NCBI GenBank assembly: GCA_946481135.1
Contig: CAMLMQ010000105.1
Span: forward strand, 1-9,803
DNA from: an uncultured Microbacteriaceae bacterium
GTDB lineage: Bacteria > Actinomycetota > Actinomycetes > Actinomycetales > Microbacteriaceae
Length of the DNA stretch: 9,803 nt
Reading direction: 5' to 3'
This document shows positions 1,641 to 9,803 of this stretch, in pieces (positions within the stretch are counted from its first letter, which is position 1; each line of letters starts with the position of its first letter). The notes under the pieces were generated by a model that made no database searches, was not told the DNA's origin, and worked only from the letters and a program-made list of their open reading frames with translations. A program made the position numbers and the translations under genes.

Positions 1641-1665
1641 CCGATTCACGGGACGCGCTCGCGAT

Positions 1666-1680
1666 GTGGGAACGATGCCA
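1666..1680 (+). promoter_or_regulatory. LacI-type operator in the glycosidase promoter
   Basis: GTGGGAACGATGCCA has the imperfect dyad TGGnAnC|GnTnCCA about a central CG, as expected for LacI-family sites. It matches the site before the kinase gene in 14 of 15 bases. It lies between the expected -35 and -10 (1683-1688), where a bound repressor would block RNA polymerase. Assignment to the adjacent LacI protein is inference from proximity and repetition. Confidence 0.75.
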
Positions 1681-1682
1681 GG

Positions 1683-1688
1683 TACGAT
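1683..1688 (+). promoter_or_regulatory. -10 element for a probably leaderless glycosidase mRNA
   Basis: TACGAT is a good TANNNT hexamer. It ends exactly 6 bases before the ATG at 1695, so the predicted transcription start is the A of the start codon. No Shine-Dalgarno sequence is present at a useful distance. The -35 is weak (CGCGAT at 1660-1665 would give a 17-base spacer), and the spacer is occupied by the operator. Confidence 0.6.
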
Positions 1689-1694
1689 CGGGGC

Positions 1695-3545
1695 ATGCCC
1701 CGCGATGCCGCGCCGCCCGTCCGCACGATCCGGAACGGGGCGCGGCTGCGCATCGAGACGGATGTCTACGCCCTCGAGCTCGCCGACGTCGACGCCGCGC
1801 TGAAGCGCGCCCCCGTCGCCCGGCTCGAGGATGCCGCGGGCCGCACGTGGAGCGACCTCTCGCTGCTCGCATCCGCCCACGTGCGCGGGGCCGCCGACGA
1901 GACCCTTCGCGTGCTCGCGATCGACGCGGCGCCGATCGCCGACGGCGTCGAGCTGCGCGTGCGGTTCGGCAGCTCGGTGTGGGCGCGACGCGACCTCGTG
2001 CTCACCTGCCTCCCCGACCGGGTCGAGCTGCGTCTCGAACTCGACGGCGCGGGAGATCTCACCGACGTCGAGCTGCTCGGGGGCCGCGCGACCCTGCCGA
2101 ACACGGCGAGCGGCGAGTTCCGCTCCCGCATCGGATTCGCCGGCGTGCTCGTGCCCGCCGCGACCGAGCCCGTGCAGCTCGTGCGCCCCGCGACCACCCC
2201 CGGCGCGCTCAGCGTCGTCGGCGACGCCGACGCGGGGCGGCTCAACGCCGTCTTCTCGCCGCCGCCCCTCGCGTTCGGTCTCTCCCGCGAGGCGCCGACC
2301 GGCGCGACCGAGGTGCCCGGCGGCGACTGGCTCGGGATGTGGCTGCGCGCCCCCGTCGACGAGCTCACGATGACGGCGGTGCGCTACGCCCCGCTCGACG
2401 GCGGGTTCCTGCTGCGCCTCGACTACGAGGGGCACACCCCCGTCGACGGCACCTGGACCTCGCCCGTCGTCGTGCTGCGGCCCGCGCGCGGAGGCTGGGA
2501 CGTGCTGGAGGACTACCGGGCCGACCTCGCCGCGGCGGGGCTCGCCCCGGCATCCCGACCCCGGGCCGACTGGTGGGACGAGCCGATCTTCTGCGGGTGG
2601 GGCGCGCAGTGCGCCCGCGCCGCCCGCGACGCCCGTGGTGCCCTTCCCGCCGCCGGCACCCCACCCGAGGAGGTCGCGCTCGCCGGGGCCGCCCGCCCCG
2701 CGCCGTGGTACGCCCGGCAGGACGTCTACGACGAGTTCCTCGCCCGGCTCGACGCCCACGATCTCGACCCCGGCACGATCGTCGTCGACGACCGGTGGCA
2801 GGCGAGCTACGGCCTCGGCACCGTCGACGAGGAGGCGTGGCCCGACCTCAAGGCCTGGATCGCGACCCGCCACGCCGAGGGACGCAAGGTGCTGCTGTGG
2901 TGGAAGGCGTGGGACGCCGAGGGTGTGCCGGCCGACGAATGCGTACGCACCGCCGACGGCGAGCGGTTCACCGTGGATGCCGGCAGCCCCGCGTATCGCG
3001 CGCGGCTCGCGGGCATCGTGCGGCACCTGCTGTCGCCCGAGGGCCTCGACGCCGACGGGTTCAAGCTCGACTTCACGCAGCGCGGTCCGAGCGGGCACAG
3101 CCTCGTCGGCACGCCCGGGGTGTGGGGGGTGGCGGCGCTCCACCTGCTCCTGCGCACGATGGCGACGGCCGCCCGGGAGGTGAAGCCCGACGCGCTGCTC
3201 ATCGCGCATTCGATGCATCCGTCGTTCGGCGACGTGTTCGACATGGCGCGCCTCAACGACGTCACCGAGCGCGACGTGCACGGTGGACGTGTGCCCGTGA
3301 CCGAGCAGCTCGCCCTCCGCGCCGCCATCACGACGCGCGCGCTGCCCGACCACCTCGTCGACACCGACCAGTGGCCGATGCCCGACCGGGCGCAGTGGCG
3401 GTCCTACGTCGAGGCGCAGCCGCGGTTCGGCGTGCCCGCGCTCTACTACCTCGAGGCGATCGACAACTCGGGCGAGCCGCTCGGCGACGACGACCTCGCG
3501 CTCGTGCGGGAGTCGTGGGCCGCGTATCGGGGAGCCCGGGCATGA
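1695..3545 (+). CDS. clan GH-D-like (GH31/GH36-type) TIM-barrel glycoside hydrolase
   Basis: A 616-residue protein without signal peptide or membrane segment, hence cytoplasmic. Residues 1 to about 290 look like an N-terminal beta-sandwich, and about 295-600 form a TIM barrel. Landmarks are CGWGAQ (300-305), TIVVDDRWQASYG (361-373, compare LDDGW in GH36), WPDLKAWIATRHAEGRKVLLWW (382-403), and DADGFKLDF (452-460). D459 in FKLDF is the likely catalytic nucleophile by analogy with KxD in GH31/GH36. D522 in MARLND (517-522), after a conserved-looking HSMHPSFGDVFD, is a candidate acid/base. These residue roles are inferred, not aligned. The protein ends straight after the barrel, so the C-terminal beta-sandwich usual in GH31/GH36 is absent. 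It is probably an alpha-glycosidase acting on an imported glycoside; the exact family and substrate are unknown. Its stop overlaps the start of the MBL gene (ATGA), so the two should be translated together. Confidence 0.8.
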   Translation: MPRDAAPPVRTIRNGARLRIETDVYALELADVDAALKRAPVARLEDAAGRTWSDLSLLASAHVRGAADETLRVLAIDAAPIADGVELRVRFGSSVWARRDLVLTCLPDRVELRLELDGAGDLTDVELLGGRATLPNTASGEFRSRIGFAGVLVPAATEPVQLVRPATTPGALSVVGDADAGRLNAVFSPPPLAFGLSREAPTGATEVPGGDWLGMWLRAPVDELTMTAVRYAPLDGGFLLRLDYEGHTPVDGTWTSPVVVLRPARGGWDVLEDYRADLAAAGLAPASRPRADWWDEPIFCGWGAQCARAARDARGALPAAGTPPEEVALAGAARPAPWYARQDVYDEFLARLDAHDLDPGTIVVDDRWQASYGLGTVDEEAWPDLKAWIATRHAEGRKVLLWWKAWDAEGVPADECVRTADGERFTVDAGSPAYRARLAGIVRHLLSPEGLDADGFKLDFTQRGPSGHSLVGTPGVWGVAALHLLLRTMATAAREVKPDALLIAHSMHPSFGDVFDMARLNDVTERDVHGGRVPVTEQLALRAAITTRALPDHLVDTDQWPMPDRAQWRSYVEAQPRFGVPALYYLEAIDNSGEPLGDDDLALVRESWAAYRGARA

Positions 3546-5386
3546 CGCCCGAGGAGGTCGGTCCCGGCATCTGGCTCGTGCGCGACACGTGCAACGTTTA
3601 CCTCGTGAAGGCGGAGGGCGCCGACACGGCCGTCGCGATCGACTTCGGCTCGGGCGACGTGCTGGATGTGCTCGCCGACCTCGGCATCAGCCGCATCACC
3701 GACGTGCTCATGACCCACCACCACCGCGACCAGGGGCAGGGGTTGCCCCGCGCGGTCGAGCACGGCGCGCGCATCCACGTGCCGCCGGTCGAGCGCGACC
3801 TGTTCGACGCCGTCGACGAGTTGTGGCGCACCCGGCCGCTCGACAACGACTACGTCGTCCGGCAGGACCGGTTCTCGCTGCTCGAGCCCGTGCCGGTGCA
3901 CGCGACGGTGCCGGAGTACCGGTTCTTCGAGGCCGGTGGTGTGCGCCTGCGCCCGATCCCGACGCCCGGGCACACGACGGGATCCGTCACCTACCTGCTC
4001 GACCGGGGCGGGGCGCGCCACGCCTTCAGCGGCGACCTGATCTACGCGCCCGGCAAGGTGTGGTCGCTCGCGTCGACGCAGTGGACCTACACCGACAACG
4101 AGGGTCCCGCGATGGCGGTGCTGTCGTGCCTCCTGCTGGGCGACGAGAAGCCCGACGTGCTCTACCCGTCGCACGGCGACCCGATGGAGGATGCCGGGTC
4201 GGCGCTCGCGCTCACCGCCGAGCGTCTGCAGGCGTACGTCGACACGCGGCGCCCGCATCCGTGGGATCTGACCGCGCGGCTGAGGTCGCCGTTCGTGCCG
4301 ATCACGGAGCATCTGCTGCTCAACCGCTCGAGCATGTCGTGCTCGTACGTGCTGCTGTCACGCACGGGCGAGGCCCTGCTCGTCGACTACGGCTACGACA
4401 TGTTCACGGGTCTGCCGTCGGGCACGGGCCGCGCGTCGCGCCGACCGTGGCTCGCGTCGCTGCCCGCGCTCAAGGCCGACTTCGGCGTCTCACGGATCTC
4501 GGTGGCGCTCGCGACCCACTACCACGACGACCACATCGCCGGGATGCCGCTGCTGCGAGACGTCGAGGGAGCTGAGCTCTGGGCGCCCGACACCGTCGCG
4601 CCGATCCTCGCCGACCCGTGGCGCTACGACCTGCCGTGCCAGTGGTACGAGCCGATCGTCGTCGACCGGGCGGTGCCGGTGGGCGAGACGGTGACGTGGA
4701 ACGAGTACGAGATCGGGGTGCATGCCCAGCCCGGGCACACGCTCTTCGCCGCCGCCTTCTCGGTCGAGGTCGACGGTGTCCGGGTCGTCTTCACGGGCGA
4801 CCAGCAGGAGAACATGGGCGTCGCGGGGGAGCGCCACGAGATCCTCAACTACCAGTACCGCAACCGGATGCGGCTCGGCGACTACGTCGCGAGCGCCGAG
4901 CTGTACCGCCGCATCGCGCCCGGCCTGCTGCTCAGCGGGCACTGGCAGCCGCGCGAGGTCGACGGCGGGTACCTCGACTACCTGCTCGCCGCCGGGCGCG
5001 AGCTCGACGAGATCCATGCCGCCCTGCTACCGCTCGACGACCTCGACCTCGACGCGGACGGCGTGCTGTGCCGCCTCGTGCCCTATCGCGCCGCCGCGCA
5101 ACCCGGTGCCCTTCTGCGCTATTCGGTCGAGCTGCGCAACCCGCACCGGGAGCCGGCGGAGGCTGTCGTGCGCCCGGTGGTGCCCCGGGGCTGGACCACG
5201 GAGCCCGCGGAACTGCGGGTGCCGCTCGACGCGCTCGGCACCGCGGAGGCGGCGTTCGTCGTGCGCGTGGGCACAGAGGTCGGACCGCGCCGGGTGCTCG
5301 CGCTCGACGTCGAGATCGGCGGTCTGCGACTCGGTCAGCACTGCGAGGCGCTCGTCGATGTGGGTGGCCGCGACGCTCGACCCTGA
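3542..5386 (+). CDS. tandem metallo-beta-lactamase-fold hydrolase with C-terminal Ig-like domain
   Basis: A 614-residue cytoplasmic protein with two MBL domains in a row. Domain 1 (about 5-235) has THHHRDQ (58-64), PGHT with H144, SGD with D165 and PSHGD with H211. The last His of its HxHxDH motif is Gln (Q64), so the second metal site may be weak. Domain 2 (about 255-495) has a complete HYHDDH (326-331), then H399 (PGHT), D420 (TGDQ) and H467 (SGHW). Residues about 505-605 look like a beta-sandwich of the NEW3 (NPCBM-associated) type: an RNP turn, then a PRGWTTEPAEL segment and alternating hydrophobic strands. MBL proteins of this type hydrolyse esters, lactones, thioesters or phosphoesters; the substrate here is unknown. 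The ATG overlaps the glycosidase stop and has GGGGAG at 3529-3534, 7 bases upstream. Shared transcription with the glycosidase suggests work on the same compound or its product. Confidence 0.85.
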   Translation: MTPEEVGPGIWLVRDTCNVYLVKAEGADTAVAIDFGSGDVLDVLADLGISRITDVLMTHHHRDQGQGLPRAVEHGARIHVPPVERDLFDAVDELWRTRPLDNDYVVRQDRFSLLEPVPVHATVPEYRFFEAGGVRLRPIPTPGHTTGSVTYLLDRGGARHAFSGDLIYAPGKVWSLASTQWTYTDNEGPAMAVLSCLLLGDEKPDVLYPSHGDPMEDAGSALALTAERLQAYVDTRRPHPWDLTARLRSPFVPITEHLLLNRSSMSCSYVLLSRTGEALLVDYGYDMFTGLPSGTGRASRRPWLASLPALKADFGVSRISVALATHYHDDHIAGMPLLRDVEGAELWAPDTVAPILADPWRYDLPCQWYEPIVVDRAVPVGETVTWNEYEIGVHAQPGHTLFAAAFSVEVDGVRVVFTGDQQENMGVAGERHEILNYQYRNRMRLGDYVASAELYRRIAPGLLLSGHWQPREVDGGYLDYLLAAGRELDEIHAALLPLDDLDLDADGVLCRLVPYRAAAQPGALLRYSVELRNPHREPAEAVVRPVVPRGWTTEPAELRVPLDALGTAEAAFVVRVGTEVGPRRVLALDVEIGGLRLGQHCEALVDVGGRDARP

Positions 5387-5438: not shown

Positions 5439-5454
5439 GTGGGAACGATTCCAC
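5439..5454 (+). promoter_or_regulatory. LacI-type operator in the kinase promoter
   Basis: GTGGGAACGATTCCAC has an imperfect dyad about the central CG (half sites GTGGGAAC and GTGGAATC, 6 of 8 matching). It resembles the TGGGAGCGCTCCCA operator known for CebR/CelR-type regulators of actinobacteria, and repeats the site at 1666-1680 with one change in the shared 15 bases. It starts just after the predicted transcription start, a position typical of repression. Confidence 0.78.
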
Positions 5455-5485: not shown

Positions 5486-6424
5486 GTGACCGCCGTCCTC
5501 GCCCTCGACATCGGCGGCACGAAGCTCGCCGCCGGCGTCGTCACGCCCGACGGCGCGGTGCACGGCATGGTCGTCGAGCCCACCCGACGCACGGAGGGGC
5601 CGGATGTCATCATCCCCCGGCTCTTCGACCTCGGGCGCCGAGCGATCGCGGAGTCGGGGGTCGCCGAGCCGATGGCCGCGGTCGGCATCTCGTGCGGGGG
5701 ACCGCTCGATGCCGACGCCGGCGTGCTCACCGGCCCGCTGCACCTGCCCGGCTGGATCGACATCCCGATCGTGCGCCTCGCGGGGGAGGAGTTCGGACTG
5801 CCCGCTGCGCTCGAGAACGACGCCTCGCTCGCGGCGCTCGCCGAGCAGCGGCACGGGGCCGCGCGCGGCGCCCGCTCGATGATGTACCTCACGATCTCGA
5901 CCGGCATCGGTGGGGGAGCCGTGTTCGACGGCGCGCTGTACCGGGGCGCCGCCGGCAACGGAGGCGAGTTCGGCCACATCACCGTCGAGCGCGGCGGGAG
6001 GCTGTGCCTGTGCGGACGCCGCGGCTGCCTCGAGGCGTACGCGTCGGGCACGTCGATCGGCGTGCGCGCCGACGAGCGTCTCGCGAGCGGGGCGTCGAGC
6101 GTGCTCGTCGCCCCCGTGACCGCACAACAGGTGGCCGTCGCGGCGTCGCAGGGCGACTCGGTCGCGACGGCTGTGTGGGACGAGACGGTCGACCTGCTCG
6201 GGCAGGCCGTCACCGACCTCGTCAACATCCTCGAGCCCCAGGTCGTCGTGCTCGGCGGCGGCGTGACCCGGTCGGGCGCGCAGCTGCTCGACCCCGTGCG
6301 GCGCACGGTCCTCGCCGGCGCGATGGGCCCCGCCCGCGGTGCGGTGCGCGTCGAGCTCGCGGCCCTCGGCGACGCGGTGTGCGTCGTCGGCGCGGGGGAA
6401 CTCGCCCTCGATCTCGTGCGCTGA
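5486..6424 (+). CDS. ROK-family sugar kinase
   Basis: A 312-residue protein, normal for ROK kinases. It has the ATP-binding motif DIGGTK (8-13), the catalytic Asp in LENDAS (D112), the substrate/zinc segment GGEFGHI with E161 and H164, and the zinc motif CLCGRRGCLE (C174, C176, C181). The second phosphate-binding element is ISTGIGGG (137-144). All key residues are present, so it should phosphorylate a hexose or amino sugar with ATP in the cytoplasm. There is no N-terminal helix-turn-helix, so it is a kinase and not a NagC/XylR-type repressor. The sugar cannot be assigned; glucose is common in the family. The start is GTG with GGAAGG (5474-5479) 6 bases upstream. The operator in its promoter ties it to the LacI-type gene, and it likely traps the monosaccharide released by the glycosidase. 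Confidence 0.95.
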   Translation: MTAVLALDIGGTKLAAGVVTPDGAVHGMVVEPTRRTEGPDVIIPRLFDLGRRAIAESGVAEPMAAVGISCGGPLDADAGVLTGPLHLPGWIDIPIVRLAGEEFGLPAALENDASLAALAEQRHGAARGARSMMYLTISTGIGGGAVFDGALYRGAAGNGGEFGHITVERGGRLCLCGRRGCLEAYASGTSIGVRADERLASGASSVLVAPVTAQQVAVAASQGDSVATAVWDETVDLLGQAVTDLVNILEPQVVVLGGGVTRSGAQLLDPVRRTVLAGAMGPARGAVRVELAALGDAVCVVGAGELALDLVR

Positions 6425-6516: not shown

Positions 6517-6522
6517 GAAGAT
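6517..6522 (+). promoter_or_regulatory. possible -10 element of the FUSC gene
   Basis: GAAGAT ends 6 bases before the ATG at 6529, the same spacing as the stronger hexamers before 1695 and 8792. A GGGGA at 6514-6518 could instead act as a Shine-Dalgarno with 10 bases to the start. Both readings are possible, so leaderless translation is less sure here. Confidence 0.35.
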
Positions 6523-6528
6523 GGACGG

Positions 6529-8345
6529 ATGAGAGAACTCCGGCTCGCGGTCTACGCCGCCGATCCGGGGCTCCGCCGCCTCGGGGCGGCCATCCGAGCG
6601 GCCGTGAGCTTCGCGCTCGTCGCGGTCGTGCTGCTCGTCGGCTTCGCGCTGCTCGACGTGCCGCTGTCGCTCGCGTATCCGGGACTGCTCGTCGCCGCCG
6701 TCGCGAGTATCACCACGGGGATGGGGTTGCGCCTGCGCCTGCGGTTCCTGCCGCTGCTGCTGCTCGCCCCGGCCGCCGTCGGCGGGCTCGCCCTCGGCAT
6801 CCTCGTGCTGCCGTCGCCCGTGCTCACGGGCGTCGTGTTCGGACTGCTCGGGCTCGCCCTCGTCGCGTCGACCCTTCTGGGACGCCCCGGCACCGTCGTC
6901 GCGCTCGGCGCGGTCGTCGGGTTCGCGGCCGTCGCGATCCTGCGCCCCGCGTGGGCGGACCTGCCGTGGGCTGCCCTCGCGGTGGTCGTCGGCGCGGGCC
7001 TTTCGGCCGTGCTCCTGGGCGTGGCGCTGCGTGAGCGGCCCCGAGCGGAGGCCCGGCGGATGCTCGCGAGCCTCCGCGCCCTCGCCGAGCAGATGCCCCT
7101 CGCGGTCGCCCAAGGCGAGGGGGCGGCCCGGCGGCACCTCGACGCGTTCGGCACGGCGATCTCGGCGACACGGGCCCGCATCGCGGCCGACCCCACCGGG
7201 TGGCCCGAGCGGCTGCGCCGCGGCGACGGCGCCGCGCTCGCCGAACTCGAACTGCGGTTCGACCGCGTCGTGCGGGAGGCGGTCGGAGGTCCCGCCTCGG
7301 CCGAGCTCGGCGCCCTCGTGCTCAACCCGCTGCTGCACGACCCCGAGGCCGTGCCGCTGCCGAGCCGCACGTCGCGACTCGACGCGCCGCACGCTCCCGT
7401 GCGCCTCGACTGGCGGCGGGCCGGCCGTAGTCTCCTCTCCGTCGGGGTGCAGCTCGGCGTCGCGGTCGTCGCGGCGCTCGCGGCGGGCCTGCTCATCGAC
7501 CCTCGACTCTGGCACTGGTGCGTGCTCGCCGCGCTCATCATGATGTTCGGCGTCACCTCGGCGGCCGCGTCGATCGGGCGCGGCTACCGGCGGCTGCTCG
7601 GAGCCCTCGTCGGCGTCCCGCTCGGCGTCGGACTCGCGTGGCTCACCGCCGACAGCGTCGTGGGCATCGCGGCGATCGTGCTCGTGCTGCTGTTCGTGCA
7701 GCAGTACGTCGCCGAACTCGCCTACGGCGCGAGCATCCTCGTGCTCACCGTGCTGCTCATCGTGCTCTTCCAGCAGTCGCCCGACGATCGCGGTGAGACG
7801 TTCCTGCTGCGGCTGCTGCTCACGGGTGTCGGTGGCGTGATCGGCGCGGGCGTCGGGTTCGCCGTGCTGCCCAGCCGTCTCGGCGAGTCGCTGCGCCGGC
7901 ACGCCGACGACGCGATGGCCGAGGTCGCGAAGACCCTCGCGGCGATGGCGGCGGGCGAGCGCGCCGAGGTCGTCACTTTGGCCGGTCGCGACGCCTACGA
8001 ACGCTTCGTGGCGCTGCGCACCGACGCACACGCCTCGCGACGCGGCTGGCCTCTCTCGCGTCACCACCGCATCCTCGCCGAGCAGCTGGGCTCGGGTGCG
8101 GTCGTCGCCCGCGAACTGCGTGCCGCGGTGCACGACTACCGCGCGCGCGTGGTCGACAAGCCGGGATTCCGCGCGGCCGTCGCCGAGGTCGAGGCGAAGG
8201 TCGCCGCCGTGCGGGCGGAGGTCGCGGGCGGCCGGACGCGGCGTGAGGCGCCGCCCGCCCCCGACGGGATGACGTCGCCCGAGCATGGACTCGTGCGGCT
8301 CGAGCGCGCGATCGACGCCCTCGCGGTCGCCCTCCGCGCGGGCTG

Positions 8346-8346
<1 letters not shown>
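6529..8346 (+). CDS. FUSC-family membrane protein (aromatic acid exporter-like)
   Basis: A 605-residue inner-membrane protein with the two-block layout of the FUSC/ArAE superfamily. A first cluster of about six membrane helices spans about 24-166, a cytoplasmic stretch about 168-300, a second cluster about 302-447, and a cytoplasmic C-terminal region follows. The second block contains the hallmark stretch from DPRLWHW (324-330) through GRGYRRLLGALVG (350-362), matching the FUSC_2-type core. Members include AaeB, which exports 4-hydroxybenzoate, and proteins linked to fusaric acid resistance; many others are uncharacterised. The energy source would be the proton gradient. The ATG at 6529 is chosen because the frame upstream of it runs through the hairpin. 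An ATG at 6521 in another frame reads only three codons. The downstream GIY-YIG gene overlaps its stop. Substrate assignment is open; pobA nearby makes aromatic acids a fair guess. Confidence 0.85.

Positions 8347-9803
<1,457 letters not shown>

Follow-up and report, generated by a model that had tools for sequence, protein, structure and literature searches.

The coupled genes and their products

The stretch analysed here (the window) comprises 9,803 nucleotides (nt) of contig CAMLMQ010000105.1 from an uncultured Microbacteriaceae bacterium. It contains two overlapping genes on the plus strand. The first encodes a glycosidase of the clan GH-D type, named GHx below (1695-3545, 616 amino acids), and the second a protein with two metallo-beta-lactamase (MBL) domains and an Ig-like tail, named MBL2x (3542-5386, 614 amino acids). 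Both were identified from open reading frame (ORF) calls and predicted models, MBL2x also from Pfam Lactamase_B matches. The GHx stop codon and the MBL2x start codon overlap in an exact ATGA at 3542-3545, and the ATGA coupling described in an earlier note on this DNA is indeed present. The pair is preceded by a gene for a LacI-family regulator (590-1606, start possibly at 581; Pfam LacI HTH and Peripla_BP_3 domains) and followed by a gene for a ROK sugar kinase (5486-6424, Pfam ROK), both on the plus strand. Of the regulon genes discussed below, the window itself holds only these four.

No Pfam family scored above its cut-off for GHx: GH31 (PF01055) reached 16.6 bits against a gathering score of 23.5 (residues 338-404), and GH36 (PF02065) gave no match at E up to 0.1 in the Pfam-A scan. 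The predicted structure (pLDDT 92.7, pTM 0.92) has the clan GH-D fold, so that the clan-level reading of the earlier note is borne out by the model, although family-level cut-offs are not reached. The top structural neighbours in Foldseek and VIA are GH31-type and related alpha-galactosidase or galactosaminidase structures. Foldseek ranks the galactosaminidases of Flavonifractor first; however, VIA puts GH31 glycosidases and MYORG above them, and thus this match reflects the fold, not the substrate. Identity to the clan GH-D alpha-glycosidases (GH27, GH31, GH36) is 9-17% in the VIA rows, whereas the GHx group has conserved motifs of its own, WWKAWD and CGWGAQC. As judged by the Pfam cut-offs, GHx is an unclassified clan GH-D protein. 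It contains the motifs DDRW (365-368) and FKLDF (456-460), and D365, D366, K457, D459 and D522 are invariant in 54 of 54 sequences. The putative nucleophile is D459. In a comparison of profiles with GH36, which reached no better than E 0.05, this residue falls on the Asp of the KxD motif; the alignment is weak, and one of the five ORFs used was wrongly picked. The acid/base could be D522 or D527. No signal peptide was evident in GHx. The nearest named relative comes from Pseudolysinimonas (Microbacteriaceae, 84%).

MBL2x consists of MBL domain 1 (residues ~1-240), MBL domain 2 (~250-490) and an Ig/NEW3-like tail (~505-610). Lactamase_B (PF00753) matches it in two stretches (E 9e-25; 88.2 bits, cut-off 22.7), the halves align to one another (BLASTP E 2e-7), and the predicted structure (pLDDT 88.7, pTM 0.88) has a beta-rich tail at ~510-607, all of which agrees with the two MBL folds and Ig-like tail that the earlier note had placed within the 614 residues. 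The tail matches NPCBM_assoc/NEW3 below the threshold (13.4 of 24.4 bits). As the VIA rows span domain 1 only, the assignment of domain 2 and the tail rests on sequence and secondary structure. The metal motif of domain 1 is THHHRDQ, with Gln in place of the last His, and domain 2 has the full motif THYHDDH; HHHRDQ and TH[YF]HDDH are each found in 78 of the 79 called homologues. The same Gln occurs in the Cronobacter metallo-beta-lactamase 'HARLDQ' protein (6dqh, 6dr8), one of the top fold matches of domain 1. However, the latter is a single-domain protein, and its motif is HARLDQ, whereas HHHRDQ keeps the middle His.

Domain 2 shares its fold and metal motif with MBL superfamily hydrolases (B3 beta-lactamases, GloB, AidB, MPH-type lactonases), from which MBL2x differs in having two MBL domains per chain, the His-to-Gln change in domain 1 and the Ig/NEW3-like tail. 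It scores 54.9 bits with the B3 beta-lactamase model NF033105 (curated cut-off 240), 58.1 with the hydroxyacylglutathione hydrolase model TIGR03413 (200.8), and 36.7 over residues 10-169 with the AidB lactonase model NF047979 (360). A beta-lactamase or resistance role was rejected, as the scores with specific models are far too low and the context is sugar catabolism. The nearest named relative comes from Protaetiibacter (Microbacteriaceae, 73%). Database names on relatives of GHx and MBL2x include 'glyoxylase-like metal-dependent hydrolase' and 'hypothetical protein'.

Operator-like sites and gene neighbourhoods

Copies of the operator-like motif GTGGGAACGATnCCA end 14 nt before GHx (1666-1680) and 32 nt before ROK (5439-5453). 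The former is an exact match to GTGGGAACGATNCCA within the site TGTGGGAACGATGCCAGG (1665-1682, plus strand), which scores 27.9 bits with the 24-site matrix described below. The latter, GTGGGAACGATTCCA, is an exact copy on the same strand. With up to two mismatches allowed, the motif has only these two matches in the window; 0.04 were expected, and one of 200 shuffles reached two. The two exact copies support the common LacI-type control of the pair and the kinase that the earlier note had proposed. The likely owner of the operators is the regulator encoded at 590-1606.

A -10-like hexamer TACGAT (1683-1688, plus strand) lies 6 nt before the ATG of GHx and 2 nt after the operator. The layout of operator, 1-2 nt, TAnnnT, 6-7 nt and ATG occurs in 12 listed loci, of 75 with GHx, as well as in the window; in three of the 12 this ATG differs from the start picked by the gene caller. 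Such a layout suggests that the GHx transcript may be leaderless, with the repressor sitting over the promoter. A scan with the sigma-70 consensus found no promoter. The gap between the LacI gene and GHx also contains an inverted repeat, CGTTTG-tcggg-CAAACG (1624-1640), distinct from the GTGGGAACGATnCCA operator.

A scan of genome contigs yielded 129 relatives, and the best 80 loci, all titled as actinobacteria, were analysed. Their genes were called with our own ORF picker, so some starts, and hence overlaps, may be wrong. MBL2x was called in 79 loci, the copy in locus L050 being missed, and neighbouring genes were annotated by cluster representatives. GHx was called in 75 of the 80 loci, upstream of MBL2x on the same strand in 71 and directly downstream in four. 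The GHx-MBL2x order with a spacing of -52 to +214 nt is found in 36 loci, 19 of which have a 4-nt overlap. The earlier note had made rare adjacency the observation that would count against it, and adjacency is not rare. Chance adjacency was rejected in view of the 75 loci and the 17 genomes, described below, that share both genes. Phage origin was not supported: viral contigs gave 148 pattern stretches, none of them encoding a relative.

Many of the 80 loci are cut by contig ends. They contain LacI in 66 cases (identity 57-69% in most, 50-51% in L077-L080), ROK in 61, a GH38 alpha-mannosidase (cluster c4) in 54, a phosphoheptose-isomerase-like SIS protein (c5) in 50, a GH127-like protein (c6; 24.0 of 24.9 bits for the representative) in 39, a PF12831 FAD oxidoreductase (c7) in 38, GH84 (c8) in 34, importer parts in 27-33 and GH1 in 21. 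Among the 55 loci that exceed 21 kb, GHx is present in 51, GH38 in 47, ROK in 46, LacI in 44 and SIS in 39. GH84 and MBL2x are on opposite strands in all 34 cases. The closest PDB relatives of GH38 are Ams1-type alpha-mannosidases. In a crude hydropathy test, 89% of the substrate-binding proteins (SBPs) of the importer have a secretion-like N-terminus, as do 0-8% of GHx, MBL2x, ROK, GH38, SIS, GH127-like, GH84, GH1 and GH2 proteins. Mirror-tree coefficients over 49 loci, calculated with no housekeeping control and hence not separating co-function from common descent, are 0.96 for MBL2x-GHx, 0.95 for MBL2x-LacI and 0.91 for MBL2x-ROK.

The 24 sites of the 80 loci that fit a strict pattern formed the training set of an operator matrix (threshold 12 bits). 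The matrix found 242 sites in the 80 loci versus 13 matches in mononucleotide-shuffled loci. A gene was credited with a site whose centre lay no more than 300 bp upstream of it or 80 bp within it; for 34 of the 242 sites there was no gene start nearby. By this count, sites are found at 53 of 61 ROK genes (47 with the training sites excluded), 32 of 34 GH84 genes (22), 24 of 27 SBP genes (24), 46 of 79 MBL2x genes (40), 22 of 75 GHx genes (17) and 26 of 388 other genes (21). Thus most of the ROK, GH84 and importer SBP genes, and many of those for GHx and MBL2x, have the same operator-like motif in front of them. In some loci, GH38-type genes of clusters c26 and c39 also carry sites, as do GFO/IDH/MocA genes.

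The kinase of the window matches ROK (PF00480) with E 9e-59 (199.9 bits, cut-off 22.9) and reaches 178.1 of 260.35 bits with the ROK glucokinase model TIGR00744. It resembles glucokinases and N-acetylmannosamine kinases, and the closest PDB chains are glucokinases. In an uncultured Friedmanniella, MBL2x and then ROK are encoded in a single reading frame (945 amino acids), and this in-frame fusion, together with the shared operators, strengthens the link between MBL2x and the kinase.

In two loci, a sulfatase gene (L017:12983-14431 and L021:12889-14445) and ROK point away from each other, and an operator-like site lies in the gap, a hint that the substrate may be sulfated in some Microbacteriaceae. 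In locus L001 (2394-8154), a module beside GHx consists of genes for OtnC-like, OtnK, DeoR, FGGY kinase, LacD-type aldolase and Asp/Glu-racemase-like proteins, each present in 5-17 of the 80 loci. Elsewhere in the window, all on the plus strand, are the 3' end of an ABC exporter gene (3-548; ORF calls and family scan), a gene for a FUSC-type membrane protein (6520-8346), a gene, beginning at the FUSC stop codon, for a small MUG113/T5orf172 protein whose N-terminal part is Cys-rich (8346-8768), and a gene for an IclR regulator of the PcaR/PobR type (below cut-off) together with the first part of another gene behind it (8780-9801). The latter resembles an FAD monooxygenase, and perhaps this is an aromatic catabolism operon.

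Distribution in Actinomycetes genomes

A sample of 345 Actinomycetes genomes, which includes one (G001) picked for having the pair, was searched at E <= 1e-60. MBL2x was found in 18 genomes and GHx in 18, with 17 common to both (Fisher p 1e-26, kinship not corrected). A follow-up set of 39 genomes comprised the 18 with MBL2x, one with GHx only (G319) and 20 controls with neither, taken as the first 20 listed without a match and smaller on average. Kinship was not corrected here either, genome completeness is not given, the family profiles were partly built from genomes tested, and the ortholog-level E-values were set after the matches had been viewed. With these limits, SIS is present in 17 of the 18 MBL2x genomes and none of the 20 controls at E < 1e-60 (weaker matches occur in four controls and G319, the best at 4e-52), and the FAD oxidoreductase in 17 and none at E < 1e-200 (a paralogue in one control reaches 5e-127). 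At ortholog-level scores, GH38 is found in 18, GH127-like in 17 and GH84 in 15 MBL2x genomes, and none of them in the controls. Thus a set of eight to nine genes is largely co-inherited.

In G319, GHx (L088:8136-9857) shares 86% identity with one copy from the loci retrieved, and MBL2x was not found in the genome, nor were GH38, GH84, the FAD oxidoreductase and GH127-like at ortholog-level scores. GHx here adjoins genes for SSF symporters that resemble those in the Nonomuraea loci, and may be either a remnant or in separate use.

Possible pathways

Sugar regulons under LacI-type control are a known kind; a study of LacI regulons (PMC4052901) names ManR for mannose and mannosides. In the present case, the existence of a regulon is well supported. 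The preferred reading is that this LacI-controlled regulon imports and dismantles an oligosaccharide containing alpha-mannose, with MBL2x acting as a zinc hydrolase near the kinase step, and we would put it slightly short of an even chance. Judging from family knowledge, the ABC transporter would import the oligosaccharide, GH38, GHx, GH84 and others would trim it inside the cell, ROK would phosphorylate the released sugar, and the GmhA-like SIS protein would convert a manno-configured aldose phosphate into a ketose phosphate for central metabolism. GHx would be an exo-alpha-glycosidase of the retaining type, with a DDxW/KxD pocket of the galacto type. MBL2x, whose second domain bears the full metal motif, may be a zinc hydrolase that strips the released sugar or sugar phosphate of a substituent (ester, lactone or amide); the removal of such a group around the kinase step is a guess, more apt to be wrong than right. 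A relative of SIS has its nearest matches among phosphoheptose isomerases (E 5e-47), the copy in L001 scores 164.3 of 209.45 bits with the GmhA model TIGR00441, and His61, Glu65, Gln172 and His180 are invariant in 13 of 13 sequences. These are the positions that we take to be the GmhA zinc ligands, and thus the substrate of SIS is most likely an aldose phosphate of manno configuration, in keeping with GH38 and its Ams1-type relatives.

Several observations weigh against this reading. The substrate and the activities of the set are predicted only. The GH127-like protein, GH84 and the FAD oxidoreductase would be superfluous for plain mannosides, so the substrate may be another glycan. SIS is closest to phosphoheptose isomerases; since ManA-type isomerases are common, the presence of a special one is a hint that the sugar is not mannose. 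The secretion-like threshold is reached by 34% of the FAD oxidoreductases, perhaps merely because of a Rossmann strand. Operator-like sites also occur at GGDEF, cation-efflux, Ig-repeat and MFS genes, which are misfits for a sugar pathway. As the misfit genes are divergent from set genes that they adjoin, these sites may serve the latter.

The remaining points concern GHx. Five of the 80 loci have no GHx nearby (L005-L007, L016 and L050). The genome of L016 carries it on another contig, whereas the four other genomes, whose completeness is not given, contain no GHx at E <= 1e-20. Three of these (L005-L007) belong to two Planctomonas species and an uncultured Microbacteriaceae bacterium and keep ROK, SIS and GH38 beside MBL2x. 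In the fourth (L050:3042-19585), MBL2x is part of a different sugar operon with an importer, a PfkB kinase, GH4 and a hydrolase of the nitrilase family; as a TrwC relaxase gene adjoins it, this operon is possibly mobile. Among the 18 MBL2x genomes, G216 has no GHx match but has the importer, LacI, SIS and GH38; it also lacks matches for the FAD oxidoreductase, GH127-like and GH84, and ROK was not called in its 18-kb stretch. Between its MBL2x and SIS genes lie GFO/IDH/MocA and ThuA genes (L087:9787-11671), and it is possible that a 3-keto-sugar route replaces GHx here. GHx is thus dispensable, and MBL2x is tied more to the core of importer, isomerase and mannosidase than to GHx. Accordingly, MBL2x is regarded as a part of this core, usually together with ROK, and GHx as a frequent but replaceable partner.

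The same exceptions bear on the proposal of the earlier note, a pathway in which the MBL protein acts between the glycosidase and the kinase: GHx would release an esterified or lactone-containing sugar, MBL2x would open or deacylate it, and ROK would phosphorylate the product. The adjacency of the pair and the tie of MBL2x to the kinase through shared operators and the fusion have held, and the ATGA overlap, the 4-nt overlaps in relatives and the weak matches of MBL2x domain 1 to AidB lactonase and methyl-parathion/dihydrocoumarin hydrolases are consistent with the proposal. However, the regulon is far larger than three genes, and the MBL step is not specific to GHx, given the four genomes and G216, which retains MBL2x, SIS and GH38. 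As a self-contained three-step route it is improbable.

One alternative is that an alpha-linked N-acetylhexosamine is first N-deacetylated by MBL2x, leaving an amino sugar for GHx to cleave. The gut A-antigen pathway uses a deacetylase-glycosidase pair of this type. The first place of the Flavonifractor galactosaminidases in Foldseek and the sites at GH84, an N-acetylglucosaminidase-type family, agree with this, but the VIA ranking of GHx does not, and no NagA/NagB-type gene was found among the annotated cluster representatives; we consider such a pair decidedly doubtful. The similarity of SIS to phosphoheptose isomerases and its invariant GmhA-like positions would also fit heptose salvage, in which GH38 and its partners free D-glycero-D-manno-heptose, ROK forms the 7-phosphate, SIS converts it to sedoheptulose 7-phosphate, and MBL2x removes a phosphate ester or diester. 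This is very unlikely, as SIS stays under the GmhA cut-off, the nearest relatives of GH38 are of the Ams1 type, and no epimerase or heptose-specific gene is present among the annotated representatives. There is equally little in favour of a regulatory or protective role, in which MBL2x takes no pathway step and detoxifies a by-product of the sugar route (a glyoxalase- or thioester-type reaction): the best NCBIfam match of domain 2 is to GloB-type hydrolases (58 of 200.8 bits), but the fusion to ROK and the near-strict co-inheritance with SIS and GH38 argue against it.

The regulon proposed here can be compared with two known systems. Actinobacterial loci for N-glycan utilisation (GH5_18/GH38/GH85 type) have in common with it regulator or ROK genes, an ABC importer, GH38 and a hexosaminidase, whereas MBL2x, GHx, SIS, the GH127-like protein and the FAD oxidoreductase are not known as components of such loci. 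In the pathway of the L-ascorbate 6-phosphate lactonase UlaG, an MBL hydrolase also stands beside sugar phosphorylation, but the present set consists of different genes, with no phosphotransferase system and with two MBL domains. Among the matches listed, the open-licence literature gave no description of a combination of double-MBL, clan GH-D, GmhA-like, GH38, GH127-like and PF12831 proteins. Tentatively, and with the balance against it, MBL2x may found a class of MBL-fold carbohydrate-active hydrolases, in which domain 2 would be catalytic and the modified domain 1 would bind or gate the sugar. MBL2x would then act together with a GmhA-type isomerase and a clan GH-D family that is still unclassified, in a glycan pathway that soil actinobacteria use and that is as yet undescribed; the sugar may have the manno configuration without being mannose.

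MBL2x is present in some 5% of the Actinomycetes genomes sampled (18 of 345, including the one chosen for it). The gene set is common to many soil actinobacteria and is apparently switched on together for a mannose-containing glycan. It includes a glycosidase group that is still unclassified, an enzyme with two MBL domains and an operator that could serve directly as a read-out for the inducer. Identification of the inducing glycan would help to assign several enzymes at once and to improve vague database names.

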